This document shows positions 2 to 19,569 of a DNA stretch of 21,692 nucleotides, one piece after another. A program made the position numbers and the translations under genes. The notes beneath the pieces were generated by a model that was not told the origin of the DNA, did not search any database, and saw only the letters and a list, made by a program, of their open reading frames with translations. The stretch is from a virus: the IMG/VR virus record IMGVR_UViG_3300007234_000126, positions 1 to 21,692 of that record. The stretch is one strand, 5' to 3'. Each line of letters starts with the position of its first letter. Positions within the stretch are counted from its first letter, which is position 1.

Positions 2-736
2 ATAGAAGGAATAACTCACATTCAGATCGACAAGCAAAAAGAATTCAAAGATTATGAAGAGTTAATTGACCTTGACATCTCATCAAAAGTAGGTCATAAT
101 GCTGTTCATGTTTTCTTGTTTGGTGGAGGAAAAACAACAGGCGCAACTTTAAAAATTCTAGAAAAGATTAAAGACAGAGAGATAACTATAAACTATGTTA
201 GACCTGAACAAAACTTTTTATCTAGCAAGCAAAAGCTAAGAGAAAGAGCCGCATTCGGAATCTTACAAGAACTAGCTAGGTCTGGAGTCTTTAAAAGAAT
301 GAATCTTTTTGATTCAGACATTTTATTAAAGTTGAGTGAAGTTTCTTTCTTAGAAAAGAAAAATTACCTATCAGGAACAATCGCGCAGGTTTTTCACATG
401 ATTAATTGGGCAAATAAAACTGATGGGGTCTTTTCTAATCTAGAAGAACCATCCGAAGTGAACAGAATTGTTTCATTTGGAATGATTAATCCAGAGGACG
501 GAGAAGAAATCTTCTACTTTCCTCTTGACAGCCAGAGAGAAACCTGTTACTATTTCTTCATGAATCGAGAGGCTCTTGGGACACCGGGAGTTATAGAAAA
601 AATAAACAATCAAATTAAACAAAGAAATGAACAATCTTCATTTAAAATAATAGAATCTGATTGGGAAACCAATCATGTTTATTTTGAATCGTTCACAAAC
701 ATAATTCAAAAAACCCAAATCAACACGGAGGAATAA
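2..736 (+). CDS. FtsZ/tubulin-like protein (partial, 5' end outside window)
   Basis: The frame is open from position 2, so this is the 3' part of a longer gene; the in-frame TTG at 116 is internal. The visible 244 residues look like the second half of a tubulin/FtsZ GTPase. A hydrophobic strand leads into GGGKTTG (bases 122-142), in the place of the tubulin signature GGGTGTG. A helix and strand follow, then a P-x-x-x-F segment, K---R--A-fG-L-EL, and FDSDILLKL, which parallels the IPND-LLK stretch of FtsZ. The C-terminal part alternates strand and helix as FtsZ's second domain does. The signature differs from consensus by a Lys and by loss of one Gly. Phage tubulins (PhuZ, TubZ types) form filaments that position DNA. 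The stop abuts the SSB start, and the GGAGG ribosome site for SSB lies inside this gene. A P-loop ATPase is the main alternative, but GGGKTTG does not fit GxxxxGKT spacing. Confidence 0.55.
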   Translation: MEGITHIQIDKQKEFKDYEELIDLDISSKVGHNAVHVFLFGGGKTTGATLKILEKIKDREITINYVRPEQNFLSSKQKLRERAAFGILQELARSGVFKRMNLFDSDILLKLSEVSFLEKKNYLSGTIAQVFHMINWANKTDGVFSNLEEPSEVNRIVSFGMINPEDGEEIFYFPLDSQRETCYYFFMNREALGTPGVIEKINNQIKQRNEQSSFKIIESDWETNHVYFESFTNIIQKTQINTEE

Positions 737-1480
737 ATGGGTATTGATCTTAAGAAGATGCGCCAAAAGCTATCTGACCTACATAACAAGGGTGGTTCTG
801 GTGGTGGCGCTAAGTTTTGGAAGCCATCGGAGGGCGAGAATGTAATTCGTATTATGCCTTCACCGGATGGTGATCCATTCAAACACTTTCATTTTCACTA
901 CAATCTAGGTGGTGGTGCTGGTGTTCTATGTCCAAAAAAGAATCATGGCGATGATTGTCCGGCTTGTGACTTTGTTTCAAAGCTTTACAATGATGGTGAT
1001 GATGATTCACGCGAGATGGCTCGTAAGCTTGTAGCAAAGAGCCGCTTCTTCTCAACTGTTCTGGTTCGTGGTGAGGAAGCTGATGGTCCTAAGATTTGGG
1101 GTTATAGCAAGACTGTTTATGAGAATCTTCTACAACTAGTTCTAAATCCAGACTATGGTGACATTACTGATGCTGAATCTGGAACAGACCTTGTTCTTAC
1201 TTATGGTAAGTCACCAGGAGCTATGTTCCCTTCAACAAACATCACTGCTCGTCGTAAGTCTTCACGACTAGTCGCAGATGAAGATTCAATGGTTGAATTG
1301 CTAGAGCAAACTGTTGATTATGACAAGCTCTTTGAGACTAAGAGTTCGGCAGACATTTCTCAACTTCTAGAGAAAACTCTATTGGGTGAAGAAGGTGATG
1401 ATTCTGATGGAGTTGTTGTAACTCCAAAGAAGTCTGGTTCATCTGTAGATGATGCCTTCCAAGACCTACTTGCTGGTTAA
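737..1480 (+). CDS. Single-stranded DNA-binding protein, T4 gp32-like
   Basis: This is a 247-residue homolog of T4 gp32, the replication and recombination ssDNA-binding protein. The basic, Gly-rich N-terminus (LKKMRQKLSDLHNKGG) resembles gp32's cooperativity arm. The core has FW-P-EGENVIRIMP, then a zinc-ribbon-like cluster: H50/H52/H54 followed by C65, C74 and C77. The C-x8-C-x2-C spacing is close to T4 gp32's C77-x9-C87-x2-C90. The C-terminal third is acidic (GEEGDDSDG) and ends in DDAFQDLLAG; in gp32 this region recruits partner proteins. T4 gp32 is about 300 residues, so this version is compact. The start has GGAGG at 727-731. It lies directly upstream of uvsX and is separated from it by a strong GC hairpin. 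Family assignment is firm; host partners are inferred. Confidence 0.9.
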   Translation: MGIDLKKMRQKLSDLHNKGGSGGGAKFWKPSEGENVIRIMPSPDGDPFKHFHFHYNLGGGAGVLCPKKNHGDDCPACDFVSKLYNDGDDDSREMARKLVAKSRFFSTVLVRGEEADGPKIWGYSKTVYENLLQLVLNPDYGDITDAESGTDLVLTYGKSPGAMFPSTNITARRKSSRLVADEDSMVELLEQTVDYDKLFETKSSADISQLLEKTLLGEEGDDSDGVVVTPKKSGSSVDDAFQDLLAG

Positions 1481-1530: not shown

Positions 1531-2658
1531 ATGTCTAAAGCAACCGGTCGGCTAAACATAGCTGACATGAAAAAATTAATTAATAAGAAAGCAGGAATGG
1601 ATGTTGCTTTCTCACTTTCTGATGATAATCCAACAGAGGTAACTCAATTTATTCCTACAGGCTGTAAATGGCTTGACGGAATTATCAAACGCGGAGATTG
1701 GGGTGGCATTCCTGTTGGAAAGCTAACAGAGATTGCTGGTTTAGAAGCAACTGGTAAATCTTACATGGCTGCTCAAATCGCTGGCAATGCTCAAAAGATG
1801 GGAATTGATGTGGTTTATTTTGATTCCGAGAATGCTATCGATCCAGAGTTCTTAACCAATGCTGGTTGTGATGTAGAGAAATTGCTTTATGTTCAAGCTA
1901 CATCGGTAGAGTTTGTGCTAGAAACAATGGAGAGCCTACTTGCCAACAATGATAGCCAAATGTTATTTATTTGGGATTCTATGGCTCTAACTCCATCTGT
2001 TTCTGATATCGAGTCTGATTTTAATCCGCTTTCAACAATGGCTGTAAAGCCTCGTATTCTTTCAAAAGGAATGTCGAAGTTGATTCAGCCTATTGCTAAC
2101 ACAAAGTCAACTCTATTGATTCTAAACCAGTTAAAAACAAACATTACCAGAACGCCAGCAGAAGCCCTTACAACGCCTTATTTTACTCCAGGTGGTAAGG
2201 CATTGGCTTATTCCTATTCTCTACGAATCTGGCTAACTGCTCGCAAAGGTAAGTCATCTTTTATCTATGATGATAAGGGATTCCGTGTTGGAACTGAGGT
2301 CAAAGCCAAGATTGAGAAGTCTCGCTTTGGAACTCAGGGTAGAGAGTGTAATTTCAAGATTCTATGGGGTGGTGATGAAGTTCGCATCTTAGACCAAGAA
2401 AGCTGGTTTGAAGCAATTAAAGGTTCGGAACAGTTGACAAATGCTGGCGCTTGGTTTACACTACACTATAAAGATGGGACATCGGATAAGTTTCAATCTA
2501 AGCAGTGGCTAGATAAACTTCAAGATAAAAAATTCCATGACAGAATTGTGGAATTACTTGAAGAAGAAGTGGTAATGAAGTTTGATAAGAGAATTGGTCA
2601 TGCTTCAAATTTCTATTCAGAAGACAAAGAAGAACATTATGTGGAGGATGTTGATTAA
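1531..2658 (+). CDS. uvsX: UvsX/RecA-type recombinase
   Basis: This 375-residue RecA-fold strand-exchange ATPase forms filaments on ssDNA. Walker A is GLEATGKS at residues 70-77, preceded by PTGCKWLDGII and GGIPVGKLTEIAG, a typical UvsX/RecA entry. YFDSENAIDPEFL gives the catalytic Glu region, MLFIWDSMALTPS is Walker B, and LLILNQL plus FTPGGKALAYSYSLRIWLT match the later RecA motifs. Length suits T4 UvsX (about 390). The ATG at 1531 has GGAG at 1522-1525. The stop overlaps the next gene's start as TAATG. The partner mediator UvsY is not visible in this window. Confidence 0.92.
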   Translation: MSKATGRLNIADMKKLINKKAGMDVAFSLSDDNPTEVTQFIPTGCKWLDGIIKRGDWGGIPVGKLTEIAGLEATGKSYMAAQIAGNAQKMGIDVVYFDSENAIDPEFLTNAGCDVEKLLYVQATSVEFVLETMESLLANNDSQMLFIWDSMALTPSVSDIESDFNPLSTMAVKPRILSKGMSKLIQPIANTKSTLLILNQLKTNITRTPAEALTTPYFTPGGKALAYSYSLRIWLTARKGKSSFIYDDKGFRVGTEVKAKIEKSRFGTQGRECNFKILWGGDEVRILDQESWFEAIKGSEQLTNAGAWFTLHYKDGTSDKFQSKQWLDKLQDKKFHDRIVELLEEEVVMKFDKRIGHASNFYSEDKEEHYVEDVD

Positions 2659-2871: not shown

Positions 2872-3819
2872 ATGGATAGAATTATGATTGTAGACATGCT
2901 AAACATGTACTACAGAGCTTACATTGTTGATCCTTCATTATCAGCAAATGGACAACCAATTGGAGGAATTAAAGGTTCATTAAAAATTTTACAAAAACTA
3001 TGTCGAGAAATCAAGCCAACACAAATTTATATTTGTTGGGATGGTCGTGAAGGGTCTTCTAAACGAAGGAAAATTAACAGTGGCTACAAAGAAGGTCGCA
3101 AACCAATTCGATTAAATCGAGACATTCGCCACCTATCAGACCAAGAAGAAATGGAAAACAAGATTTGGCAACAGCTAAGGCTGGCTGAATACTTCAATCA
3201 GCTTCCCATCTGTCAATTAAACATTGAGTTCTCAGAAGCAGATGACATTATTGGAGCCCTTGTTGCTAGGTTCCGAGGTAAACAAAAGGTAGTTATCTCA
3301 AGCGACAAGGATTACTTTCAGCTACTAGATGACACAACTCTTCTTTATCGCCCAACACAAAAGCAAATCTTAAATAAGAATAACATTATCAGTGAGTACA
3401 ACATTCATCCATCAAACTTCGCAGTTGCCAGAGCAATCGTAGGCGACAAGAGCGACAATCTCCCAGGAGTAAATGGGGTAGGTCTTAAGACTGTAGCGAA
3501 AAAGATGCCTTTTCTTCTAGAGAGAGAAGATTGCCTCTTGAAAGATGTGTTCGACTCTGCTATAGTCGATGATCCATTTTGGGAGAAGATTAAAACCAGT
3601 AAAAATTTAATTGAAGAAAACTTCAAAGTAATGAATCTTGGAACAATCAATCTTTCACCTCAAAATAGTAGAATTATTAAAGAAGCGGTAGAGAATTATC
3701 CAACAGAATTTGCCAGAACTGAACTAATCAAAATGATGATGAAAGATGGTTTTGCTGAATTAAACTGGGACGATCTCTACACTTCCATGAATCGCATAAG
3801 GATTGCCAATGCTAAATAA
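2872..3819 (+). CDS. 5'-3' exonuclease / flap endonuclease (T4 RNase H-like)
   Basis: This 315-residue structure-specific nuclease resembles T4 RNase H and the 5' nuclease domain of Pol I, and would remove RNA primers and flaps. The acidic metal-site motifs are in order: D8 in IMIVDMLN, D57 in CWDGREG, E122-D124-D125 in EADD, D145 and D147 in SSDKDY, and D192/D195 in GDKSDN. The H3TH DNA-binding turn follows as LPGVNGVGLKTVAKK. Length equals T4 RNase H (about 305), with no attached polymerase. The ATG at 2872 lies just after the terminator T-run. Its 3' end overlaps the helicase gene by 11 bases. Confidence 0.9.
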   Translation: MDRIMIVDMLNMYYRAYIVDPSLSANGQPIGGIKGSLKILQKLCREIKPTQIYICWDGREGSSKRRKINSGYKEGRKPIRLNRDIRHLSDQEEMENKIWQQLRLAEYFNQLPICQLNIEFSEADDIIGALVARFRGKQKVVISSDKDYFQLLDDTTLLYRPTQKQILNKNNIISEYNIHPSNFAVARAIVGDKSDNLPGVNGVGLKTVAKKMPFLLEREDCLLKDVFDSAIVDDPFWEKIKTSKNLIEENFKVMNLGTINLSPQNSRIIKEAVENYPTEFARTELIKMMMKDGFAELNWDDLYTSMNRIRIANAK

Positions 3820-5170
3820 TGATTTTTCAAAATTTGGAAAACACTTTCAAGAAAACCTAGTTCAGATTATGTTTGAAGACCGAGCCTTCTGCGATCAAGT
3901 AGGCGAAGTCTTCAAGGTGGAGTTTCTAGAACAGAAATATCTACAGGAGTTTGTTGATAGGTTATTTACCTACAAGACAAAGTTTACCACTCATCCGTCT
4001 TCCAATGCGATGGCTTCTGTTCTTAGGACAGAATTGGATGAGTCTAATCAAGTCTTAACAAAGCAAGTAAGAGACTTCTTTGCTAGAATTCAAGCAAATT
4101 CTGAGATTGAAGATGAAGAGTATATCAAACACACTTCTCTAGACTTCTGTCGCAAACAAAAGTTAAAAGAAGCTCTGATGAAGTCTGCGAACCTTCTTCA
4201 GAAGGCTTCATTCGACGAGATTTCAGTTCTTATTAATGAAGCTCTGAAACTTGGCTCAGATAATTCCTATGGCTATGATTATAAGCTAGACTTTGAAAAG
4301 CGATTTGTTCTTAAGCAAAGAAGTCCAGTTACAACAGGCTGGGATATCATTGATAAGATTAGCAAAGGCGGCCTGGGAGCAGGAGAGCTTGGTGTTGTTA
4401 TTGCTCCAACAGGAGCAGGTAAATCAATGGCTTTGGTTCATTTGGGAACTCAAGCTCTTATCAACGGTAAGACAGTAGTTCACTTTACACTAGAACTAGC
4501 AGACACAGTTGTAGCTTCTCGTTATGATTCTTGTTTGACTGGAATTCACCTGAAAGACCTTTACCATCGTAAAGAAGAGATTTATGAAGAGGTAAAGGGT
4601 GTAAGCGGAAACATTATTGTAAAAGAATACCCAACCAAGTCTGCTTCTGTGACAACTTTGCGAAACCATCTAAGTAAGCTACAGAATCGTGGCATTGATG
4701 TTGGAATGATTATCGTTGATTATGCCGACCTTCTAAAGCCAACAGGCAACTACAAAGAAAAAAGAATTGAGTTAGAGACAATCTACGAAGATCTTCGTGG
4801 TCTTTCTCAAGAGTTTGGTTGTCCTATTTGGACAGCCTCTCAAACAAATCGAAGCGGACTTAATGCCGAAGTTATCACAATGGAAAGTATTTCTGAAGCT
4901 TTTAACAAATGTTTTGTTGCGGACTTCATATTTACCTTATCCCGAACCATCGAGGATAAAAATACGAATGCTGCTAGAATGTTTGTAGCTAAAAATCGTA
5001 ATGGGCCAGACGGTCTTGTTTACCCGATGAAGATGGATACCGCTAATGTTTTGCTAGAAGTTCTGGAACCAGATGGTAATACGATTCAAGAGATCAATAA
5101 GGAAGCAGCAAAACATCAAAAACAAAGATTAATCGATAAATACAAGAAATTTAAACAAGGAGACAGTTAA
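3809..5170 (+). CDS. Replicative DNA helicase, DnaB/T4 gp41-like
   Basis: This 453-residue hexameric 5'-3' helicase drives the replication fork. An N-terminal helical domain (residues 1 to about 150) resembles gp41. The RecA-like core then begins with VTTGWDIIDKISKGGLGAGELGVVIAPTG. Walker A is APTGAGKS at residues 199-206. Walker B is MIIVDYADLL with D304. QTNRSG and AKNRNGPDG match the H3/H4 and arginine-finger region of DnaB-family helicases. I chose ATG 3809 over the upstream TTG 3803 because AAGGA at 3798-3802 is correctly spaced for it. No primase is adjacent, so it is presumably encoded elsewhere. The stop overlaps the RNR start (TAATG). Confidence 0.9.
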   Translation: MLNNDFSKFGKHFQENLVQIMFEDRAFCDQVGEVFKVEFLEQKYLQEFVDRLFTYKTKFTTHPSSNAMASVLRTELDESNQVLTKQVRDFFARIQANSEIEDEEYIKHTSLDFCRKQKLKEALMKSANLLQKASFDEISVLINEALKLGSDNSYGYDYKLDFEKRFVLKQRSPVTTGWDIIDKISKGGLGAGELGVVIAPTGAGKSMALVHLGTQALINGKTVVHFTLELADTVVASRYDSCLTGIHLKDLYHRKEEIYEEVKGVSGNIIVKEYPTKSASVTTLRNHLSKLQNRGIDVGMIIVDYADLLKPTGNYKEKRIELETIYEDLRGLSQEFGCPIWTASQTNRSGLNAEVITMESISEAFNKCFVADFIFTLSRTIEDKNTNAARMFVAKNRNGPDGLVYPMKMDTANVLLEVLEPDGNTIQEINKEAAKHQKQRLIDKYKKFKQGDS

Positions 5171-9089: not shown

Positions 9090-9605
9090 ATGGACACTCT
9101 AGTACTATCATCTGCTTATCAACCAATGCGCCAAGTAAGTTGGCAAGAAGCCATTTCTATGTGGTTTGCTGGGAGAGTTGAAATCATTTCAGTTTATGAA
9201 GACAGATTCATCAGAACTGTTGATGAGGTCTTTAAAGTTCCTTCAATTGTTCGCTTTGTAGGGAATGTCGTTAAGAAATTTAATTTTAACAATAAGCCAA
9301 AGTTCAGCAGAGAAGCTATTTTTATTCGTGATAAAGGCGAGTGTCAGTATTGTTCTGCAAAATTAAGCCCACATAGTTTTACTCTCGATCACGTTATGCC
9401 AGCATCAAAAGGTGGTCGTAAGCATTGGTTAAATATTGTAGCTTGTTGCAAGCCGTGCAATCAAGCAAAGGGCAATCGAACACCAAAACAAGCTGGAATG
9501 ACTCTAAAACGACAACCTTTTATTCCAGAGAAAGTAAAAGTAGAAAATAAAATGAAGATTGAACGAGATGTTCCCTTTGAATGGAAAAATTACTTATTCG
9601 ATTGA
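9090..9605 (+). CDS. HNH endonuclease, common bacterial/phage type
   Basis: The 171-residue protein belongs to the widespread HNH family that begins VLSSAYQPMRQVSWQEAISMW and continues with a conserved beta domain (VRFVGNVVKKF). The HNH site is FIRDKGECQYC (first zinc pair), FTLDHVMPASKGG (catalytic His), WLNIVACCKPCN (Asn and second zinc pair) and KGNRTP. Unlike the other two HNH genes here it has no extra N-terminal zinc fingers and looks like a resident gene rather than a recent homing element. Possible roles include DNA processing or packaging-type nicking. Its stop codon TGA is part of the TTGACA box of the tRNA-Ser promoter. Confidence 0.88.
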   Translation: MDTLVLSSAYQPMRQVSWQEAISMWFAGRVEIISVYEDRFIRTVDEVFKVPSIVRFVGNVVKKFNFNNKPKFSREAIFIRDKGECQYCSAKLSPHSFTLDHVMPASKGGRKHWLNIVACCKPCNQAKGNRTPKQAGMTLKRQPFIPEKVKVENKMKIERDVPFEWKNYLFD

Positions 9606-9647: not shown

Positions 9648-9737
9648 GGGCAGTTGTCCGAGTGGTTTATGGTGATAGCTTGGAAAGCTGTTGTAGGTTC
9701 GCGCCTACCGGGGGTTCGAATCCCTCACTGCCCGCCA
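9648..9737 (+). tRNA. tRNA-Ser(GGA)
   Basis: The acceptor GGGCAGT (9648-9654) pairs fully with ACTGCCC (9727-9733), followed by G and encoded CCA. The anticodon loop TTGGAAA gives GGA, reading UCC/UCU. A long variable arm (GTAGGTTCGCGCCTAC region) marks a serine-type class II tRNA. The T-loop is TTCGAAT. Confidence 0.93.
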
Positions 9738-9791
9738 AAAAATTTTGTTGAATGGTTTAGTGGTTTATTGGTTTAGCAGACTATTTATAAT

Positions 9792-10262
9792 ATGAAATAT
9801 GAGCGCAACCCAAACACAAAATGTTCTATTTGTGAAAAAGAAATCTACCGCCGTCCATCACAGTTGGACAGGCAAGTTTTCTGTAGTAGGGAATGTTATG
9901 GTATTTCTTGTAGAAAAGAGATAAAATGCTTGATTTGTTCAAAAGAAATATTATCAGGTCTGAATAAAAAAACTTGTTCAGAGAATTGCTACAAAGAATA
10001 TCGGATCATCCTAAACAAAAAACACAAGTGGAGAATAAACAAAAACCCAGATAACGTAGTTCGTTCTAAAGTAGCTAGAGTAAGGTTTATAGAAGAACGG
10101 GGTAATAGATGTGAGCTATGTTCTTATAATAATGCTCCACAAATTCTAAACATACATCATATTATTGAACGTTGTAATGGAGGAACTGATGAAAAGGATA
10201 ATTTATTAGTTGTTTGCCCTAATTGTCATTCCGAGATACATGCTGGTTTGAGAGAAATATAA
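9792..10262 (+). CDS. HNH endonuclease with N-terminal zinc fingers
   Basis: The 156-residue protein starts with two Cys4-type knuckles (CSICEKEIY...FCSRECY and CLICSKEI...CSENCY), a common layout in mobile phage HNH endonucleases. The nuclease core is GNRCELC, ILNIHHIIERCNGGTDEKDNL and CPNCHSEIH, with His, Asn, His and both zinc pairs intact. It has no clear Shine-Dalgarno site and lies 54 bases after tRNA-Ser, with no homologous host gene interrupted that I can see. This suggests a free-standing homing-type gene that settled by a tRNA. It is more AT-rich than its neighbours. Confidence 0.85.
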   Translation: MKYERNPNTKCSICEKEIYRRPSQLDRQVFCSRECYGISCRKEIKCLICSKEILSGLNKKTCSENCYKEYRIILNKKHKWRINKNPDNVVRSKVARVRFIEERGNRCELCSYNNAPQILNIHHIIERCNGGTDEKDNLLVVCPNCHSEIHAGLREI

Positions 10263-10277
10263 TTTGGAGGTTTATAG

Positions 10278-10652
10278 ATGAATGTAGTTATCACTGGTGG
10301 TCGCCATTTTAAAGACCGTAAAATGATGTGGGAAACTCTGAATAAGATTCATCAAGAGACTCCCATTGAGCGGCTGGCTCATGGTGCTTGTACGGGTGCA
10401 GATAATTTGGCACGGGAATGGGCCATTGAAAATGGCCTAACTGCTGTTGGATACCCAGCCGATTGGCATATTGGCAAGAAAGCCGGCCCGATGCGTAATG
10501 CTTATATGCTACAACAAGAGCAACCTGATTTAGTTGTTGCTTTTCCTGGCGGTCGTGGAACTCAAAATGCTATTGACTTTGCTGAGAGAATGGGTTACAA
10601 TATAACAGTCGTCCATGAGAACGGTACTTTAGAATTAAACGAAACACTATGA
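10278..10652 (+). CDS. DUF2493/SLOG (YspA/DprA-like Rossmann) protein
   Basis: The 124-residue protein fits DUF2493 of the SLOG superfamily, which binds nucleotides or nucleotide-derived ligands. Matching segments are VVITGGRHFKDR at the start, LAHGACTGADNLAREWA, YPADWHIGKKAGPMRNAYML and PDLVVAFPGGRGTQNAIDFA, the last being the typical loop that holds a phosphate. GGAGG at 10266-10270 sets the start. The stop overlaps the thymidine kinase start (ATGA), so the two are translated together. A role in nucleotide handling or signalling is an inference from fold and neighbour. Confidence 0.88.
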   Translation: MNVVITGGRHFKDRKMMWETLNKIHQETPIERLAHGACTGADNLAREWAIENGLTAVGYPADWHIGKKAGPMRNAYMLQQEQPDLVVAFPGGRGTQNAIDFAERMGYNITVVHENGTLELNETL

Positions 10653-11194
10653 AGCAAGAGTTTATTATCTTCACAGGACCAATGTTTGGAGGAAAGACCT
10701 CAAGAATGCTCTCAACTTTGGAGAGGGCAAAATACCAAAAGAAAGTAATAAAACTATTCAAGCCTGCTATTGACTCTCGTTATTCAACAGAGTCGGTTAT
10801 TTCTCACAATGGTAAGAAGTGGGTTTCTATCAATGTAGATGTCGGAGAAGAGATCCTCAATCATCTTGGTAGAGCAGATGTTGTAGCGGTTGATGAAGCT
10901 TTCATGATTCCCGGTGTAGCTCAAATTTTAATTGATCTATTTAAACAAGGCAAATCAGTTTATGTTTCATCGCTTCAGCTTTCCTCAAAAGGACTTGTAT
11001 TCGATGAAATAGCAAAGATGATGCCTTGGGCAACAAAGATTGAAATCTGCCCTGCTGTGTGTTATTGTGGAGAAGATGCTTATTATACAGTGCCTCTTAC
11101 CCAGAACAGAGAACCTATTGGAGTTGGTGGTTCAGATAATTATGAGCCTCGTTGTAAAGAACACACAGACTTTCTGATAGATGAAAAAGCTTGA
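10649..11194 (+). CDS. tdk: Thymidine kinase (type II)
   Basis: This 181-residue thymidine kinase phosphorylates thymidine with ATP in the salvage path to dTTP. The P-loop is GPMFGGKTS (residues 10-18), the DRY-like segment is IDSRYST, and D82-E83 in VVAVDEAFM is Walker B and catalytic. The zinc site uses C134/C138/C140 of CPAVCYCGEDA and C169/H172 of PRCKEH. The spacing C-Y-C is tighter than the usual C-x2-C, so C134 may substitute. The lasso segment sits near SLQLSSKG. The gene pairs naturally with the phage ThyX and RNR. Its stop codon lies in the -35 box of the next promoter. Confidence 0.92.
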   Translation: MKQEFIIFTGPMFGGKTSRMLSTLERAKYQKKVIKLFKPAIDSRYSTESVISHNGKKWVSINVDVGEEILNHLGRADVVAVDEAFMIPGVAQILIDLFKQGKSVYVSSLQLSSKGLVFDEIAKMMPWATKIEICPAVCYCGEDAYYTVPLTQNREPIGVGGSDNYEPRCKEHTDFLIDEKA

Positions 11195-11219
11195 CAGCAA
11201 ATTAAAAGTGGTGTAGAAT
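11191..11219 (+). promoter_or_regulatory. Sigma70-like promoter for tRNA-Leu(TAA)
   Basis: TTGACA (11191-11196), 17 bases, TAGAAT (11214-11219). The tdk stop TGA is embedded in the -35 hexamer. The tRNA starts 11 bases after the -10 box. Confidence 0.75.
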
Positions 11220-11230
11220 AGATTCAAGAT

Positions 11231-11316
11231 GCGAGCGTGCCGGAATTGGTATACGGAGTTGACTTAAAATCAACCGCACTAAGTGCTTGGGGGTTCAAGT
11301 CCCCCCGCTCGTACCA
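11231..11316 (+). tRNA. tRNA-Leu(TAA)
   Basis: The acceptor GCGAGCG pairs with CGCTCGT, with a G1-U72 wobble. Discriminator A and encoded CCA follow. The anticodon stem GTTGA/TCAAC carries loop CTTAAAA, so the anticodon is TAA (reads UUA). The long variable arm fits leucine. The last 25 bases before the final CA recur at 11745-11769. Confidence 0.92.
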
Positions 11317-11346
11317 AGTATAAAAAGATGGATAACTTAGAACCGC

Positions 11347-11375
11347 TTGACAAAGAATTAAAAACTTGATATACT
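11347..11375 (+). promoter_or_regulatory. Sigma70-like promoter for tRNA-Arg/tRNA-Ile copy 1
   Basis: TTGACA (11347-11352), 17 bases, TATACT (11370-11375). The spacer end AAAAACTTG and the -10 box match the second copy at 11844-11872. Confidence 0.78.
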
Positions 11376-11384
11376 AAGTTCAAT

Positions 11385-11461
11385 GACTCCTTAGCTCAGT
11401 TGGATAGAGCAACAGCCTTCTAAGCTGTGGGTCGTAGGTTCGAGTCCTACAGGGGTCGCCA
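11385..11461 (+). tRNA. tRNA-Arg(TCT), copy 1
   Basis: The acceptor GACTCCT pairs with AGGGGTC, followed by G and CCA. The anticodon stem ACAGC/GCTGT with loop CTTCTAA gives TCT (reads AGA). D-loop AGTTGGATA and T-arm GTAGG/CCTAC are standard. Confidence 0.94.
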
Positions 11462-11504
11462 ACAAGTCTAACTGTGCGTTATTCTTAAGGCTCATTACAT
11501 TTAT

Positions 11505-11581
11505 ACACCTCGGCTGGCTGGTAGTCAGAAGGCGTCTTATAAGCGTCTTAGAGCAGAGTTCAATTCTCTGGGGGTGTACCA
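11505..11581 (+). tRNA. tRNA-Ile(TAT)-like, copy 1, unusual anticodon arm
   Basis: The acceptor ACACCTC pairs with GGGGTGT (A1-U72), then A and encoded CCA. T-arm is CAGAG/CTCTG. The anticodon arm can be read as AGGCGT/GCGTCT, 6 bp with a 7-base loop CTTATAA and anticodon TAT. With canonical 5-bp numbering it instead gives a 9-base loop, which leaves a normal 5-base variable loop. Positions 8-9 are GG instead of the usual T at 8. Ile(AUA) is the most likely identity but not certain. Confidence 0.7.
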
Positions 11582-11775
11582 AAAGTCCACCGTGTGGGTT
11601 CGATTCCCACTCCGGCGCTTCGGGGTCGGAAAAGCAGTGAATGAGGTTCAACTGCGCTAGTTAAAACTAGCGGTGGCAAACTCTACCGTCGTGGTGTAAC
11701 AGGTAACACACAGTTCTTATGACGGGACCGTGCGCATCGGAGCCGGGGTTCAAGTCCCCCCGCTCGTACTAAAAT
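11582..11775 (+). pseudogene. tRNA fragments and hairpins between duplicated units
   Basis: No complete cloverleaf fits. Visible pieces are a T-arm GTGGG/CCCAC (11594-11610) with an acceptor-like TCCGGCG; a hairpin GCAGT/ACTGC near 11633-11655; a hairpin CGCTAGT/ACTAGCG (11655-11672); a D-arm-like GTGT/ACAC with loop AACAGGTA (11694-11709); and a T-arm and acceptor end at 11744-11768 copied from tRNA-Leu(TAA), with one C-C mismatch and CTA for CCA. I read this as decayed tRNA genes; a novel structured RNA is the alternative. Confidence 0.5.
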
Positions 11776-11843
11776 TTTAAAAAATCTGATTAAGCTATTT
11801 GCCAGAGAAGAGGTTCTAATAAATTTTAGTGACTTAGAGAAAG

Positions 11844-11872
11844 TTGACAAGTGAATAAAAACTTGCTATACT
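11844..11872 (+). promoter_or_regulatory. Sigma70-like promoter for tRNA-Arg/tRNA-Ile copy 2
   Basis: TTGACA (11844-11849), 17 bases, TATACT (11867-11872), 16 bases before the tRNA-Arg. Confidence 0.78.
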
Positions 11873-11888
11873 AGACTCACGAAACAAC

Positions 11889-11965
11889 GCCTCCGTAGCT
11901 CAACAGGATAGAGCAACGGCCTTCTAAGCCGTAGGTTGCAGGTTCGAATCTTGCCGGGGGTACCA
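11889..11965 (+). tRNA. tRNA-Arg(TCT), copy 2
   Basis: The acceptor GCCTCCG pairs with CGGGGGT (G1-U72 and one internal T-G wobble), then A and CCA. The anticodon stem ACGGC/GCCGT with loop CTTCTAA gives TCT. The body differs from copy 1 at many positions while keeping the anticodon loop. Confidence 0.92.
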
Positions 11966-12006
11966 CAAGTTTGACTAAGCGTTGAACTTTAGGCTCATTT
12001 CATTAT

Positions 12007-12080
12007 ACACCTCGGCTGGCTGGTAGTCAGAAGGCGTCTTATAAGCGTCTTAGAGCAGGGTTCAATTCCCTGGGGGTGTA
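12007..12080 (+). tRNA. tRNA-Ile(TAT)-like, copy 2, no encoded CCA
   Basis: It is nearly identical to copy 1, including the odd anticodon arm and the GG at positions 8-9. The T-stem has changed from CAGAG/CTCTG to CAGGG/CCCTG, a paired substitution that keeps base pairing. After discriminator A the genome reads CTA, so CCA must be added by an enzyme. Confidence 0.7.
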
Positions 12081-12101
12081 CTAAAGGAGGGATGATATCA
12101 A

Positions 12102-12326
12102 ATGAATACGAAAGTAAAAGAAATGATTCCTGACGGCTTTGATAAAGACCGATGGGAATGGGACGGCGATGAATTGACCCTTTACATCAAGGGAGAACCT
12201 TTCAGCAAGCAAGAGTTCTTTATGGATTCTCCGACTTACGCGGCAATGTCAAACATTGAAGAGTACTTGGAGCAACTGGATAACCAACATGAAATTAGTT
12301 CTGCTAATAGCACAACCTATAGATGA
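12102..12326 (+). CDS. Small acidic protein of unknown function
   Basis: The product has 74 residues, starting MNTKVKEMIPDGFDKDRWEWDGDELTLYI. A strong AAGGAGG lies at 12084-12090, immediately after the end of tRNA-Ile copy 2. The predicted pattern is strand-turn-strand then helix (MSNIEEYLEQLDN). No family is recognised. It overlaps the next gene by 38 bases. Together these two genes interrupt the tRNA array and have a somewhat higher GC content than the surrounding DNA, as if acquired as a pair. Confidence 0.65.
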   Translation: MNTKVKEMIPDGFDKDRWEWDGDELTLYIKGEPFSKQEFFMDSPTYAAMSNIEEYLEQLDNQHEISSANSTTYR

Positions 12327-12549
12327 AGAGGGAAACAATTCAGATTACATTGGATTGCGAGATGTTTTCTCGGATTATGAGTCGGCCAAACAATATCTCT
12401 TAGACGAAGTTGGCCCGGTCGGGCTCTTAGGGTCGGGCAAACCATTTTGCTGGGAAATCCGACATACAGACGGTCGTGTGCAAAAGTTGAGCGCCTTTGA
12501 AGGCAAAACGCATGATTATACGATTATTGAGACAGAAATGACTAGTTAA
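12289..12549 (+). CDS. Small protein of unknown function
   Basis: The product has 86 residues, beginning MKLVLLIAQPIDEEGN. I chose ATG 12289 over the upstream TTG 12256 because the protein then starts directly with a beta strand, and the upstream extension is the other gene's codons. It has strands (VLLIAQP, FCWEIRHTDG), a helix (DYESAKQYLLDEV) and a Gly-rich GLLGSGKP turn that is not a full P-loop. No family is recognised. It overlaps the preceding gene and is followed by tRNA-Thr 19 bases later. Confidence 0.6.
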   Translation: MKLVLLIAQPIDEEGNNSDYIGLRDVFSDYESAKQYLLDEVGPVGLLGSGKPFCWEIRHTDGRVQKLSAFEGKTHDYTIIETEMTS

Positions 12550-12568
12550 TGAAGAGGAGTGGCAAATT

Positions 12569-12641
12569 GCTGGAATAGCTCAGTTGGTAGAGCGCCTCAC
12601 TTGTAATGAGGATGCCGTGGGTTCGATTCCTGCTTCCAGCA
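12569..12641 (+). tRNA. tRNA-Thr(TGT)
   Basis: The acceptor GCTGGAA pairs with TTCCAGC, discriminator A. The anticodon stem CCTCA/TGAGG with loop CTTGTAA gives TGT (reads ACA). The genome continues CTG, so CCA is not encoded. Confidence 0.92.
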
Positions 12642-12695
12642 CTGCTTTTTGAACTTCCAACCACTATTTACTATAGAACAGGGGGGGAAGGTCAA

Positions 12696-13238
12696 ATGAC
12701 AAAAAAAGAAGAATATACAAAAAACCCTAAAAAGTGCCATGAATGCAGTTGCAGCCTTAGTTGGGATAAAAGAAAGAATAAGTTTTGTTCTTCTTCGTGT
12801 TCTGCAACCCATTCAAATCAAAGAAGGGCGATAACATATCGCAAGCATGACAAAGGAAAGACTTGCGTTTTTTGTAAAAAAGAATATAATACAAAACATA
12901 AAGATAGTAAGTGGTGTTCTAATAACTGCCACCACAATTGGATGAGAGAAGAAAAAATCAAAAGCGGCGTTGCAAGTCACATTGTTGTAAAAACCTTTTT
13001 GATAAAAAAGTATGGTGCAAAATGCATGGAATGTGGTTGGGGCAGAATAAATGATTACACTGGCAAAGTTCCAATAGAGTTGGAACACGTTGATGGTAAT
13101 AGTCATAATAATACTCTAGAAAATGTAAAGTTGCTTTGTCCCAATTGCCACTCTCTCACACCCACTTATAAGGCTTTGAACAAGGGAAATGGAAGGTATA
13201 AAAGAAGGCAACGTTATCAAGAGGGGAAATCGTTCTAG
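12696..13238 (+). CDS. HNH endonuclease inside the tRNA array
   Basis: The product has 180 residues from ATG 12696; a G-run ending in AAGG (12681-12691) is the ribosome site, so the in-frame upstream extension into the tRNA is rejected. Two Cys4-type knuckles (CHECSCSL...FCSSSCS and CVFCKKEY...WCSNNCH) lead into the nuclease core CMECGWG, IELEHVDGNSHNNTLENVKLL and CPNCHSL, with His, Asn and His present. The layout equals the HNH protein at 9792, though the sequences are diverged. It sits between tRNA-Thr and a broken tRNA end, as expected for a mobile endonuclease that inserts at tRNA genes. Confidence 0.85.
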   Translation: MTKKEEYTKNPKKCHECSCSLSWDKRKNKFCSSSCSATHSNQRRAITYRKHDKGKTCVFCKKEYNTKHKDSKWCSNNCHHNWMREEKIKSGVASHIVVKTFLIKKYGAKCMECGWGRINDYTGKVPIELEHVDGNSHNNTLENVKLLCPNCHSLTPTYKALNKGNGRYKRRQRYQEGKSF

Positions 13239-13249
13239 AACATAGGATA

Positions 13250-13284
13250 AGTTTTATAGGTTCAAGTCCCTCTTAAGGCACCAA
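13250..13284 (+). pseudogene. 3' fragment of a tRNA
   Basis: Just after the HNH stop comes GGTTCAAGTCC, a T-loop core, followed by TTAAGGCACCA, an acceptor end with CCA. The T-stem no longer pairs well and no matching 5' half (GCCTTAA) is seen before or after the HNH gene. It looks like the remnant of a tRNA broken during insertion or deletion. Confidence 0.5.
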
Positions 13285-13286
13285 AG

Positions 13287-13362
13287 CTCCAGTAGTGTAA
13301 TGGGTAACATACCAGCCTTTCAAGCTGCGAGATTACGGGTTCAAGTCCCGTCTGGAGTACCA
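13287..13362 (+). tRNA. tRNA-Glu(TTC)
   Basis: The acceptor GCTCCAG pairs with CTGGAGT (G1-U72), then A and CCA. The anticodon loop CTTTCAA gives TTC (reads GAA). The T-stem ACGGG/CCCGT is perfect; the top anticodon-stem pair is a C-C mismatch. Confidence 0.92.
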
Positions 13363-13369
13363 CAAAATC

Positions 13370-13442
13370 GGGCGGTTAGCTCAGTTGGGAGAGCATCGGC
13401 TTTGCAAGCCGAGGGTCGTGGGTTCAAGCCCCACACTGTCCA
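13370..13442 (+). tRNA. tRNA-Ala(TGC)
   Basis: The acceptor GGGCGGT pairs with ACTGTCC with two G-T wobbles, discriminator A. The stem TCGGC/GCCGA with loop TTTGCAA gives TGC (reads GCA). The genome continues CCG, so the final A is not encoded. Confidence 0.93.
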
Positions 13443-13466
13443 CCGAATCAATTTATTGTTTCTAAA

Positions 13467-13537
13467 GCGAGTATGATGTAATGGTAACATTTCTGCCTTC
13501 CAAGCAGACTTTACGGGTTCGAATCCCGTTACTCGCT
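13467..13537 (+). tRNA. tRNA-Gly(TCC)
   Basis: The acceptor GCGAGTA pairs with TACTCGC, discriminator T. The stem TCTGC/GCAGA with loop CTTCCAA gives TCC (reads GGA). The short D-loop (AATGGTA) is typical of glycine. The genome continues CCT instead of CCA. Confidence 0.93.
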
Positions 13538-13542
13538 CCTAA

Positions 13543-13624
13543 GTTGGCGTGGTGGAATCGGTATACACGGCAGTCTCAAAAACTGCTTCCTGATGGAATG
13601 CGAGTTCAAGTCTCGCCGCCAATA
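13543..13624 (+). tRNA. tRNA-Leu(CAA)
   Basis: The acceptor GTTGGCG pairs with CGCCAAT (G1-U72), discriminator A. The stem GCAGT/ACTGC with loop CTCAAAA gives CAA (reads UUG). It has a long variable arm and T-stem GCGAG/CTCGC. CCC rather than CCA follows, and the next gene's ATG begins four bases after the tRNA. Confidence 0.91.
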
Positions 13625-13628
13625 CCCC

Positions 13629-13883
13629 ATGAAAGAAATTAAATTTACAATTACAGAAAATCTCTATAAAAGATTAGAAAAAGCAAATAAATTTTATTTT
13701 GAAGATAGTGAAATCAATCGTTCTTGTCGCCTAATGGTTGAAACTTTTATCGAGTATATTGAAGGCGAATATCCAAAGAAAAAAACAAGGAAAACAAACG
13801 GAGTTAAAAATGTCGAAAGTATCAGAGAAACTAAAGAGCCTAAACCTCGCAGAAAACGCACCAGTAAAGCTAAAGTTCAGTGA
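13629..13883 (+). CDS. Basic ribbon-helix-helix-like protein
   Basis: The product has 84 residues from ATG 13629; the in-frame ATG at 13593 lies in the variable arm of tRNA-Leu and is rejected. The N-terminal half, KEIKFTITENLYKRLEKA then NRSCRLMVETFIEYIEGE, has the strand-helix-helix pattern of ribbon-helix-helix DNA-binding proteins (MetJ/Arc type). The C-terminal 35 residues are Lys/Arg-rich (KKKTRKTNG, KPRRKRTSKAK). A DNA-binding regulator is a reasonable guess. There is no ribosome site upstream because the tRNA ends there. Its last 74 bases overlap the next gene in another frame. Confidence 0.6.
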   Translation: MKEIKFTITENLYKRLEKANKFYFEDSEINRSCRLMVETFIEYIEGEYPKKKTRKTNGVKNVESIRETKEPKPRRKRTSKAKVQ

Positions 13884-14283
13884 TGGAGCCCAAGTATTTC
13901 ACTACACAGGAGACTACCTTGACGGAGTTCTTAATGAAACAGGAGTTTTAAGCGAGTTGTCTCATGTTATTTGTTATGATGGAATTCGTAAATCAAATTC
14001 AGTTCTTAATCAAATGCGAGATAACGGAGTTCTAGATGATTATGAGCGCGGATCATTCACTTTTGATGATTATGTTTATGATCTTCTAAAAGAAGATTGG
14101 CAAGATTATGTAGAGGAAACTCTTGAGCAGTGGGACTTTAAGCGAGGAATGTGTAATCTCTCTACAGAGGTAGAGGTTCCACTAAATCTACTAGCAGAAG
14201 CAGAGTCCTATGGATTTATTTTAGGTGGTGGATGGCAAGTCTATGTTCAGACCGATGCTGGTCTCTTGGAGGTAGAACGATAA
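13810..14283 (+). CDS. Acidic protein of unknown function
   Basis: The product has 157 residues from ATG 13810, with GGAG at 13800-13803. It begins MSKVSEKLKSLNLAENAPVKLKFSDG and continues with a helical, acidic stretch (DDYVYDLLKEDWQDYVEETLEQW), ending in strands (FILGGGWQVYVQTDAGLLEVE). No family is recognised. Phage proteins of this type, all-soluble and acidic, are often early host-takeover factors, but nothing here shows that. The start lies inside the ribbon-helix-helix gene and the stop overlaps the next start (TAATG). Confidence 0.75.
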   Translation: MSKVSEKLKSLNLAENAPVKLKFSDGAQVFHYTGDYLDGVLNETGVLSELSHVICYDGIRKSNSVLNQMRDNGVLDDYERGSFTFDDYVYDLLKEDWQDYVEETLEQWDFKRGMCNLSTEVEVPLNLLAEAESYGFILGGGWQVYVQTDAGLLEVER

Positions 14284-14396
14284 TGTTTAATTCAGACGCA
14301 GAACTACAGAAAGCAACAGATAGAATTTTTTATTCTTGTTTGTTCGGAACAACTTTAGGGTTTGCTCTTTTTGGGTGGTTTGTTTATAATGTATAG
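14283..14396 (+). CDS. Tiny single-span membrane protein (37 residues)
   Basis: The ATG overlaps the previous stop (TAATG). The product has a short polar N-terminus (MFNSDAELQKATDR) and one strongly hydrophobic helix (residues about 15-37: FYSCLFGTTLGFALFGWFV), probably N-in or N-out single span. Preceding GGAGG at 14268-14272 supports translation. No family is recognised. It overlaps the next tiny membrane gene by 8 bases, so the two are likely made together. Confidence 0.6.
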   Translation: MFNSDAELQKATDRIFYSCLFGTTLGFALFGWFVYNV

Positions 14397-14496
14397 AACC
14401 AAGAAAGAATTTATTTTAACTTTGGTTGGTATGACTGTTTTCTTTTATTCAATCTCATACCTTCTTAAAGTGTTTTATCACGCTATATTGGAGTAG
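14389..14496 (+). CDS. Tiny single-span membrane protein (35 residues)
   Basis: The start overlaps the end of the preceding tiny gene. The product opens with charged MYRTKKEF and then one hydrophobic helix (ILTLVGMTVFFYSISYLL), ending KVFYHAILE. The Lys/Arg at the N-terminus suggest N-in topology. It has no clear ribosome site, consistent with translational coupling. ThyX starts 3 bases after its stop. A paired role with the preceding membrane peptide is an inference from the overlap. Confidence 0.55.
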   Translation: MYRTKKEFILTLVGMTVFFYSISYLLKVFYHAILE

Positions 14497-14498
14497 AA

Positions 14499-15230
14499 AT
14501 GCAACACATCAAAAAATATCTTTATGGTGAGAAAGAATGCTTTGTAGACTTGGTAGATTATGTAGGCTCCGACCTTTCAGTAGTCAATTCTGCTCGCGTT
14601 TCATTTGGCAAACATAAGGCAGAGTTGGATGAGAAAGATAAAAAGCTCATCAAATACCTTATCAAACACAAACACACTTCAACACTGGAACATTGCTTTG
14701 TAACCTTCCGCGTCAAGGTTCCTCTGTTTGTTCGCTCACAGCATCATCGTCACCGTACTTGGTCTTACAACGAGATTAGTCGTCGTTACACGGATGAAGC
14801 TATTAAATTCTATGAACCGGAAGCTTTCAGGACTCAGCATAAGTCAAACCGTCAGGCATCGAATGTTGATGGGTTGAACAACCCAGAAGTTACTGCTTTG
14901 GGGGTTGATGAATATGGTTTGCGCTTTATGCCTGAGAAAACTACCGCTTCTCAAGCGGTTCAATCACACCACATTCTTTCTCTGGAACTTTACTATCAAC
15001 TTATCGAAGCAGGTGTTTGCCGAGAACAAGCCCGTGGTATTTTACCACAGAACATGCTGACAGAGTATTATTGTTCAGCAAATCTAAACAACATTCTAAA
15101 GTTCATTGACCTTCGCACACACGAAGGAGCGCAGTGGGAAATCCAACAAATGGCTCTCGCTATGCTAGAAATTGTCTCTAAACTATACCCAGTTACCGTG
15201 GAGGCTTACCGTGAAATTAGGGGGCTCTAA
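14499..15230 (+). CDS. thyX: Flavin-dependent thymidylate synthase ThyX
   Basis: The 243-residue enzyme methylates dUMP to dTMP using methylene-THF, FAD and NADPH. The ThyX signature RHRTWSYNEISRRY is at residues 84-97, matching RHR-x7-S. Upstream STLEHCFVTFRVKVPLFVRSQ matches the FAD/dUMP-binding helix and strand. EQARGILPQNMLTEYYCSANLNNILKFIDLR, spanning residues near 178-207, is the conserved C-terminal motif with R-x-x-L-P. Length is normal for ThyX (about 220-250). The start has GGAG at 14490-14493. Together with thymidine kinase and RNR it gives the phage two routes to thymidylate. Confidence 0.95.
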   Translation: MQHIKKYLYGEKECFVDLVDYVGSDLSVVNSARVSFGKHKAELDEKDKKLIKYLIKHKHTSTLEHCFVTFRVKVPLFVRSQHHRHRTWSYNEISRRYTDEAIKFYEPEAFRTQHKSNRQASNVDGLNNPEVTALGVDEYGLRFMPEKTTASQAVQSHHILSLELYYQLIEAGVCREQARGILPQNMLTEYYCSANLNNILKFIDLRTHEGAQWEIQQMALAMLEIVSKLYPVTVEAYREIRGL

Positions 15231-15698
15231 ATGGGAACAGTTACAGGAACAGTCTTATGTGCTGCTATCATGGCTAGTTCAGGTGTGTTTGGTTTTGGCG
15301 GTAAAAATCGTGCTTGTAAGCATAGCAAGCAAATAGTAAAAGCCGCAGATAAATACAAACTCGATCCCTATTTACTAACGGCTATGATTCAAGTTGAATC
15401 TAATTGGAAGCCCTATGTTGTTTCTCATTCCAATGCTTGCGGATTAACACAGGTTCTACCTCAATACAGCAAATATACCTGCAAGCAACTAAAAAATCCA
15501 AAAACTTCTATTTTTGAAGGAGCAAAAAAGCTCAACTTTTGGATTTACAAATACGGAAAAGGAAACATTACAATCGGACTTTGCGGATACAACAAAGGTT
15601 TTCGTTGTAAGGGAGAAAAAGCCAATCGAAGGGGCTTGACATATGCCAAAAAGGTTGTTAAACTAACAGCCAGCTTAAAACCAAAGGAGAATAACTAA
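15231..15698 (+). CDS. Exported lytic transglycosylase (SLT domain)
   Basis: The product has 155 residues. Residues 1-24 are hydrophobic and probably a signal sequence or membrane anchor, although it lacks the usual basic N-terminus. The SLT fold follows: YKLDPYLLTAMIQVESNW with catalytic E56, SNACGLTQVLP (residues 67-77), and GLCGYNKG. Five Cys after the signal suggest disulfides in the periplasm. It cuts the glycan strand between MurNAc and GlcNAc. It lies immediately after ThyX and before a lipoprotein gene, so it may act at the envelope during entry or release, separately from the M15 endolysin. Confidence 0.85.
   Translation: MGTVTGTVLCAAIMASSGVFGFGGKNRACKHSKQIVKAADKYKLDPYLLTAMIQVESNWKPYVVSHSNACGLTQVLPQYSKYTCKQLKNPKTSIFEGAKKLNFWIYKYGKGNITIGLCGYNKGFRCKGEKANRRGLTYAKKVVKLTASLKPKENN
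15636..15664 (+). promoter_or_regulatory. Possible sigma70-like promoter for lipoprotein
   Basis: TTGACA (15636-15641), 17 bases, TAAACT (15659-15664), 34 bases before the lipoprotein ATG. It lies within the transglycosylase reading frame, where chance matches also occur elsewhere in this window, so support is weak. Confidence 0.35.
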
Positions 15699-15956
15699 AT
15701 GTTTAAGCAAATTTTATTTCTAATCGCAGCAGGGATGCTAGTCATTGGTTGTGGTTGCGATGATGAAAAGAAAGCAAAGGAAACTGCTGACGTTGTAAGC
15801 GATGCTGAAGCCGATGTAGAGCAAGATGCTACAGAGACAGCAGAGGATACAACTGAAGCTGATGTTTCTGAAGCAGATTCCGCCGAAGCAGATGTTTCAT
15901 CTGCTGATGTTACAGAGCCAGTTGATGCTGCTCAAGATGTAACTCCACAGGACTAA
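15699..15956 (+). CDS. Lipoprotein with acidic low-complexity tail
   Basis: The product has 85 residues. The signal MFKQILFLIAAGMLVIGC ends in a lipobox LVIGC with C18 as the acylated residue. The mature part, after GCDDEKKAKE, is built almost entirely of Ala, Asp, Glu, Thr, Val and Ser in loose repeats (EADVSEADSAEADVSSADV). It would sit on an envelope membrane as a flexible acidic tether. Phage lipoproteins can block superinfection or act as outer-membrane spanins; neither is shown. The composition resembles lipoproteins I associate with Myxococcota-type hosts. AAAGGAG at 15684-15690 is the ribosome site. Confidence 0.8.
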   Translation: MFKQILFLIAAGMLVIGCGCDDEKKAKETADVVSDAEADVEQDATETAEDTTEADVSEADSAEADVSSADVTEPVDAAQDVTPQD

Positions 15957-15964
15957 TGGTCCTT

Positions 15965-16040
<76 letters not shown>

Positions 16041-17065: not shown

Positions 17066-17332
17066 ATGGAATCAACCAAACAAGAAAAATTCGCTGAATA
17101 TATTCAATCAATGGCAGCAATCGAAGATTGTATGAAACCTTATCGTGAGCAACGAAAGGAGCTTCGTAAGAACTTTCTAGAAAATCGCTGGCTAAGTAAA
17201 GATGAAATTAGTCTAGCAATGAAAGCTTTCCGCATGTGGGAACAACAGCTAGATTTTGATGATTTTGCTTCAATCTATGAAGCAATCGAGACTTCTTTCG
17301 GTGAGAAGGAGTTGCGTGATGAAACCACTTAA
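17066..17332 (+). CDS. Helical protein of unknown function
   Basis: The 88-residue product starts at ATG 17066, with AGGAG at 17056-17060. It is predicted mostly helical and charged (YREQRKELRKNFLENRWL, KDEISLAMKAFRMWEQQLDFDDF). No family is recognised. It overlaps the GroES-like gene by 14 bases, so translation of the co-chaperonin is coupled to it. Confidence 0.75.
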   Translation: MESTKQEKFAEYIQSMAAIEDCMKPYREQRKELRKNFLENRWLSKDEISLAMKAFRMWEQQLDFDDFASIYEAIETSFGEKELRDETT

Positions 17333-17588
17333 TCGCCACATTTTAATTCAACTTCCAAACAAGAAAGAAGAAAAACAGCAAGGCTTTTATCTGCCTGAAG
17401 ATGTCGTAGTTAAAAAGAAGCCCCATGAAGTTGTCAAAGTCTTGAAAATCGCATCGGATTCAAAGTTCGATGGTATTTTGAAATCAGGTGATATGATTGT
17501 AGTAGAATCTCATCTAATCACCGAAGTCGAGACTGATAGTGATAAGCACTACTTTATTTCTGAAAATAATGTTTTGGCGGTATGTTAA
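17319..17588 (+). CDS. GroES-like co-chaperonin
   Basis: The 89-residue product fits the GroES/Cpn10 fold: MKPLNRHILIQLP at the start, a mobile-loop segment EEKQQGFYLPED with hydrophobic tripeptide FYL in place of the GroES IVL, VVKVLKIASDSKF, LKSGDMIVVESHLITEVE and HYFISENNVLAVC. It is about as long as GroES (97) and shorter than T4 gp31 (111). No GroEL is visible, so it likely caps host GroEL to fold phage proteins such as the capsid. I chose ATG 17319 with AAGGAG at 17307-17312 over an upstream in-frame start that would add 21 residues of unrelated sequence. Confidence 0.82.
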   Translation: MKPLNRHILIQLPNKKEEKQQGFYLPEDVVVKKKPHEVVKVLKIASDSKFDGILKSGDMIVVESHLITEVETDSDKHYFISENNVLAVC

Positions 17589-19308: not shown

Positions 19309-19555
19309 AGAAATTCCTATTAACCTTTTGGAATCAGCAGGATTTCCAATTGGATGGTATGATCTTAACCACGACCAAAAGAGTTTGGTCGAATGGTTTT
19401 TAAATCAAATTGAGTCTCATAAATCAGTTATCTTAGAACTTGAGATGGAAAAGGAAGCTTTAGAGGAATCCTTGGAAGACTTACAATACGAAACAAGTGA
19501 TAAGATTGCCGATCTTGAAAGAGAACTAAGAAAGTGTCGAACAAGAGAACTTTAA
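19292..19555 (+). CDS. Small coiled-coil protein of unknown function
   Basis: The product has 87 residues from GTG 19292, with GGAGG at 19281-19285 correctly spaced. The N-terminal half is globular (PINLLESAGFPIGWYDLNHDQ) and the C-terminal half is coiled coil (ELEMEKEALEESLEDLQYE, DLERELRKCRTREL). It begins within the preceding coiled-coil gene, so the two may form a heteromer. The polymerase gene starts 15 bases after its stop. Confidence 0.7.
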   Translation: MKTIYEEIPINLLESAGFPIGWYDLNHDQKSLVEWFLNQIESHKSVILELEMEKEALEESLEDLQYETSDKIADLERELRKCRTREL

Positions 19556-19569
19556 TTAATGGAGGAAAA

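Follow-up and report, generated by a model that had tools for sequence, protein, structure and literature searches.

The window, by which we mean the whole stretch of DNA analysed here, is an IMG/VR virus record of 21,692 bases, and its left part carries a series of replication genes (Table 1). The first open reading frame encodes 244 aa and is open at the left contig edge, and its stop codon directly abuts the ATG of a gp32-like single-stranded DNA-binding protein (SSB) gene at position 737, a placement that an earlier sequence-only reading of this DNA had described correctly. The motifs which that reading took to be FtsZ-like are likewise found in the translation (GGGKTTG, RPEQNF, RERAAFGILQEL and FDSDILLKL). 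Complete homologues on related contigs supply the missing 5' end: those on L001 and L002 are each 279 aa long and each 98% identical to the window copy across the 244 common residues, and a third, also of 279 aa, is 77% identical (L003). The window copy lacks only the first 35 codons, which in the full-length copies encode, as expected, the first strand, the GxGxxG loop, a helix and the second strand; the L001 protein (encoded at 1255-2094 of that contig) begins MIVIGIGTGGSQI...YDCLTIDSE. Protein length in the family ranges from 264 to 286 aa.

Table 1. Features of the tubulin-like gene and the replication genes that follow it (window positions; residues numbered as in the full-length protein)
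Feature	Positions	Strand	Basis
Tubulin/FtsZ-fold protein (predicted), 5'-truncated by contig edge; residues 36-279 of 279-aa full-length form	2..736	+	Model and Foldseek
T4 (phosphate-loop) equivalent GGGKTTG, residues 76-82	122..142	+	hhalign, opposite FtsZ GGGTGTG
Central helix H7 equivalent, residues 151-174	347..418	+	DSSP of model
T7-equivalent segment GVFSNLEEPSEVNRI, residues 177-191	425..469	+	Without helix H8 in model
Shine-Dalgarno-like GGAGGAA of SSB gene, within last tubulin-like codons; TAA abuts SSB ATG	724..736	+	Sequence
gp32-like single-stranded DNA-binding protein	737..1480	+	Pfam PF08804, 54.8 bits; phrog_1192, E 5.7e-28
UvsX/RecA-like recombinase	1531..2658	+	phrog_97, E 9.2e-51; PF00154, 114.5 bits
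5'-3' exonuclease	2872..3819	+	PF02739, 99.4 bits
DnaB-like replicative helicase	3803..5170	+	PF03796, 73.6 bits

Elsewhere in the window are twelve tRNA genes (9648-16040), with HNH endonuclease genes among and beside them (9090-9605 and 9792-10262); there are two copies each of tRNA-Arg(tct) and tRNA-Ile(tat), arranged alike both times, which suggests a local duplication. A gene for a YspA/cpYpsA-related SLOG-family protein (10278-11194) adjoins one for thymidine kinase, a GroES-like co-chaperonin (Cpn10) of 88 aa starts at an ATG within a longer ORF (17322-17588), and a DnaE-type polymerase III alpha subunit with a PHP domain is present (19534-21690) besides the family-A polymerase upstream of the window.

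The same arrangement recurs in viral metagenomes, where the conserved order is family-A polymerase, tubulin-like gene, gp32-like SSB, UvsX, 5' exonuclease and DnaB, with a gene for a B12-dependent ribonucleotide reductase also among the neighbours. A scan with the window's UvsX yielded 80 loci, nearly all of which, where the region is present, have a homologue upstream of SSB (25-65% identical to L001), and the tubulin-like gene is present at all loci whose sequence extends over more than 400 bases ahead of SSB; the locus set was gathered through UvsX and family members, and these figures describe that phage group rather than all phages. The family-A polymerase ORF runs into the tubulin-like gene in 57 of the 81 distinct copies, the shared stretch being 4 bases long in 29, 10 in 26 and 13 in 2. 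Another copy lies within 2 bases of the polymerase ORF, 17 are cut by a contig edge, and in some of the few that remain small ORFs stand between the two genes. On the other side, SSB starts at most ~110 bases from the tubulin-like stop in 77 of the 81, and in the window's clade the two abut, with the SSB ribosome-binding site inside the last tubulin-like codons. The relatives' contigs are fragments, the longest of 184 kb, and do not themselves establish a jumbo-phage size. The connection with replication genes that had been proposed from the window thus extends across its relatives, and we regard the tubulin-like protein as very probably a component of the replication module. In one relative (L070, 5257-7110) SSB and UvsX occupy a single open frame of 617 aa, either a natural SSB-recombinase fusion or a frameshift or assembly error.

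An AlphaFold2 model built from 38 sequences (pLDDT 90.9, pTM 0.89) has the elements in the order S1-H1-S2, a short strand, S4-H4-S5-H5-S6-H6 and a 24-residue central helix, followed by a strand-rich second domain with H10, S9 and S10. When the PDB was searched with this model by Foldseek, FtsZ or CetZ accounted for 50 of 50 among the matches listed, the best of which had an E value of 3.5e-12 and a TM-score of 0.71 by query over ~310 alignment columns covering both domains. A second model, led by the divergent member L012 with its SGEEKIAG loop (pLDDT 94.2), had FtsZ and TubZ as its top structural matches, also across both domains (E 7.5e-11). Both models contain the nucleotide-binding domain, the long central H7 and the second alpha/beta domain that characterize the tubulin/FtsZ superfamily. 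In an hhalign comparison with a profile of nine FtsZ sequences, the family stayed in register with FtsZ from S1 through H7, with GGGKTTG facing GGGTGTG and FDSDILLKL facing PNDKLLKV, at a probability of 17.5% (E 0.0014); taken alone, this profile signal for FtsZ appears weak. Because the model matches FtsZ and CetZ over both domains and the FtsZ profile aligns in register, the resemblance to FtsZ is more than would be expected by chance, and structure prediction indicates that the gene product is almost certainly a two-domain protein of the tubulin/FtsZ fold. This agrees with what the sequence-only reading had proposed: the model of the complete protein shows the two domains as well as the long central helix, the predicted fold is not of the P-loop type, and the N-terminal FtsZ half is present in full-length copies. 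The same reading had looked for a tubulin or FtsZ match over both domains together with a T7 loop; the match was obtained, but a canonical T7 loop is absent.

Sequence searches by themselves were less informative and pointed in part to another identity. The Pfam Tubulin profile (PF00091) scored 10.5 bits against L001, below the curated cut-off of 33 bits, and matched six of 38 members at E ≤ 1 (best E 0.011); in the relatives' contigs it gave two weak matches (12.4 bits), both at the tubulin-like gene itself. Neither PHROGs nor Pfam assigned a confident family to the members scanned, and no tubulin-named PHROGs family was among the matches listed. No relative was found by tblastn with four family queries against 50,697 phage records, nor in GTDB species genomes scanned with one protein and a nine-sequence alignment, and the deep alignment A3 of the family contained no stretch conserved enough for pattern scans. 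FtsZ matches in records labelled as phage were mostly to bacterial-type FtsZ (37-99% identical) on bacterial or fecal contigs; these are probably host DNA and were set aside. TrkA_N profiles, in turn, matched within residues 2-93 (best E 4.9e-4; 12 of 38 members at E ≤ 1), and over the same residues a PDB profile search gave KtrA at E 8.6e-6 for a two-copy chain and E 0.34 for single stretches, as if the protein were a Rossmann-type NAD- or nucleotide-binding regulator (KTN/TrkA_N-like) that shares with tubulin only a beta-alpha-beta start. However, the structural matches of the two models, to FtsZ and CetZ throughout in one (50 of 50 among the matches listed) and to FtsZ and TubZ in the other, include H7 and the second domain, and a TrkA profile used as a Rossmann control aligned across 26 columns only. 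We thus discarded the Rossmann identity on the structure of the two models and consider it highly improbable.

Conservation, counted over 44 representatives sharing less than 90% identity, is uneven among the elements that bind nucleotide in FtsZ. The T1 glycines are near-invariant (G5 in 44/44, G7 in 42/44, G10 in 43/44) and D29, the acidic or polar residue closing S2, is kept in 36/44, although this loop and the S2-end residue are also common to Rossmann folds and are not diagnostic alone. The T4 signature GGGTGTG ([SAG]GGTG[SAT]G) is absent: the window's own clade, which is monophyletic with full support in the tree, has GGGKTTG, and the phosphate loop of other clades reads SGEEKIAG, GGSGDISA, AGAGISSG and so on. 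Nine of the 44 carry an acid at phosphate-loop position 78, a gain that takes three changes on the tree, at least two of them forced by well-supported branches, and the SGEEK clade also lacks D29. A counterpart of the FtsZ T3 motif GAGA was not found in the family alignment. Where FtsZ has T7 and H8, the model is non-helical from residue 175 to residue 190, the next strand following at 191, and the T7-like segment has an acid at position 183 in 23/44 and at 187 in 37/44, without the NxDxxD consensus; the protein also has no C-terminal tail. The window's clade retains GxGTGGS, D29, GGGKTTG and the acids at 183 and 187. Conservation is highest at Y100, Q124, R128, S129, R190, E204, R214, Y262 and Q271, residues that lie mostly outside the nucleotide loops. 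For three pairs the dN/dS ratio of the tubulin-like gene was 0.11-0.14 (SSB, 0.04-0.10), and by this measure the gene is under purifying selection. Because the model has no H8, the T7 acids vary, the C-terminal tail is absent and the phosphate loop is variable, we conclude that the family is not an ordinary FtsZ, TubZ or PhuZ. Nucleotide binding has probably been lost in clades other than the GGGKTTG clade, where a nucleotide may still serve as structural ligand or as switch.

Proteins of the tubulin superfamily are GTP-driven filament formers that act in division, DNA partition and phage nuclei. In this family the GTP loop has eroded while the fold and the operon position were kept, so nucleotide-driven filament dynamics would not be the common function, and the same pattern favors a role as a scaffold or partner protein. 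Since its gene overlaps that of the polymerase and abuts that of SSB, the tubulin-like protein would be synthesized together with both; it could then be a structural member of the replisome and bind polymerase and/or SSB through putative surfaces at the conserved end of H5 (Q..xARSG) and near the C-terminus (TNxIQ). In place of dynamic filaments it may form short or closed oligomers, or not assemble at all, and for the window's GGGKTTG clade nucleotide would be an optional ligand. The acid at position 78, the loss of D29 in the SGEEK clade and the lack of H8 in the model all speak against an obligate GTPase. Overall, the best explanation is that a protein of tubulin fold was taken over by the replisome, as a scaffold or as a partner of polymerase and/or SSB, and we put this at about an even chance; that the mechanism is that of a non-cytoskeletal scaffold we hold a little less firmly, and only tentatively do we propose the narrower version, a dedicated non-cytoskeletal subunit of the replication complex (a polymerase/SSB scaffold or processivity partner) in which nucleotide binding was lost more than once. 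Against a scaffold, operon position is not proof of physical interaction, and the window's clade, with T1, D29, GGGKTTG and the acids at 183 and 187 intact, could bind and even hydrolyze GTP. Moreover, Microcystis phage Mel-JY01, the closest cultured relative by SSB and UvsX, has the same operon without the tubulin-like gene, so a related replisome can work without the protein. A search of seven long relatives and of Mel-JY01 for sliding clamps turned up neither a gp45 nor a beta-clamp domain; DnaE, present in four of the seven, could use a host clamp, and a sliding-clamp role for the tubulin-like protein is a lead only.

A working phage cytoskeletal tubulin of the PhuZ or TubZ kind, which would polymerize with GTP and position or segregate replicating phage genomes, would also fit the fold found by Foldseek and the T1 glycines, D29, GGGKTTG and T7-like acids kept in the window's clade, and PhuZ and TubZ offer precedents in phages (PMC7950403). 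It is, however, difficult to reconcile with a model that lacks H8 and a canonical T7, given that subunits of PhiKZ TubZ, tubulin and FtsZ meet within the protofilament through T7, the base of H8 and S9 (PMC3678025), or with a phosphate loop that is degenerate in several lineages and a missing C-terminal tail. We therefore consider this reading unlikely. Counted against it as well, PhuZ and TubZ genes occupy other genomic settings. The filament-based positioning of the genome suggested by the sequence-only reading is so far unsupported, for want of a canonical T7/H8 and of a phosphate loop stable enough to serve as a GTP signature, and a second tubulin gene was not found in ten long relatives; in the window's GGGKTTG clade such positioning is possible, though unproven. 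Phage inhibitors of FtsZ are known, and a truncated FtsZ-like subunit that keeps the tubulin N-terminal domain and in the model has no H8, an element of the bottom interface, might act as a decoy, capping host protofilaments and blocking division during infection. Yet an identity to FtsZ of only ~10-15% is poor for a mimic, none of the lineages sampled has the gene outside the replication operon, and the GTDB scans found no copies in bacterial genomes, which together make a decoy quite improbable.

Tubulins encoded by phages are already known from TubZ of c-st and from PhuZ (PMC7950403, PMC7824862). A search of the literature on phage tubulins and replication, at the level of titles and abstracts and with subscription papers and preprints outside its range, returned no description of a tubulin-like replisome protein or of such a family. 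To our knowledge there is no earlier tubulin-superfamily replisome component, and this one, if the scaffold or partner reading is true, would be the first; the tubulin fold could then serve DNA replication without being a cytoskeleton. If instead the protein of the window's clade polymerizes, a phage cytoskeleton would be encoded inside a replication operon. In either case, a gene that Pfam and PHROGs recognized in no member scanned gains an annotation, as a small, divergent and so far phage-only protein of the tubulin/FtsZ superfamily, in a widespread and fast-evolving family that keeps its fold and its place beside polymerase and SSB while the GTP loops wear away. The wearing away of these loops in several lineages suggests a filament protein re-used in a viral DNA-copying machine.

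Comparison with known systems places the family as follows. Mel-JY01 and Flavobacterium phage immuto share the order polymerase A, ..., gp32-like SSB, RecA/UvsX, 5' exonuclease and DnaB, but in these more distant phages, and in two spounaviruses of similar operon order, different small genes stand where the tubulin-like gene would be, and the family model detected no homologue in Mel-JY01. There (L085, 3703-5369) a diverged polymerase-like ORF is followed by an overlapping, unrelated ORF of 147 aa, which may be a replacement of the tubulin-like gene. A structure search also brought up the BFVD entries A0A6J5RW92 and A0A8S5UFG9 from uncultured tailed phages; they too are predicted FtsZ-like tubulin folds but are 387-452 aa long and 11-12% identical. 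TubZ of Bacillus plasmids and phage c-st shares the tubulin fold, that of Bacillus cereus (4ei7) being among the matches of the L012-led model, but TubZ acts with TubR and a centromere (PMC7950403), whereas the neighbours of the tubulin-like gene are replication enzymes. FtsZ (e.g., E. coli FtsZ, 6ll6) is the best structural match, with two domains, central H7, T1 GxGxxG, S4-T4-H4, the T5 proline and S6-T6 in common; in contrast to FtsZ, with which identity is 10-15%, the tubulin-like protein has a core ~30 residues shorter, no H8 in the model, a T4 loop two residues shorter that is GGGKTTG or degenerate, and neither the GAGA T3 motif nor the C-terminal linker and peptide, and it is encoded in a replication operon rather than among division genes. 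PhuZ and PhiKZ TubZ of nucleus-forming jumbo phages are likewise tubulin folds encoded by phages, but PhuZ forms canonical protofilaments through T7, H8 and S9 and centres phage DNA (PMC3678025, PMC7950403, PMC4244570), whereas neither H8 nor a canonical T7 is seen in the model of the tubulin-like protein, whose gene is coupled to those of the polymerase and SSB.
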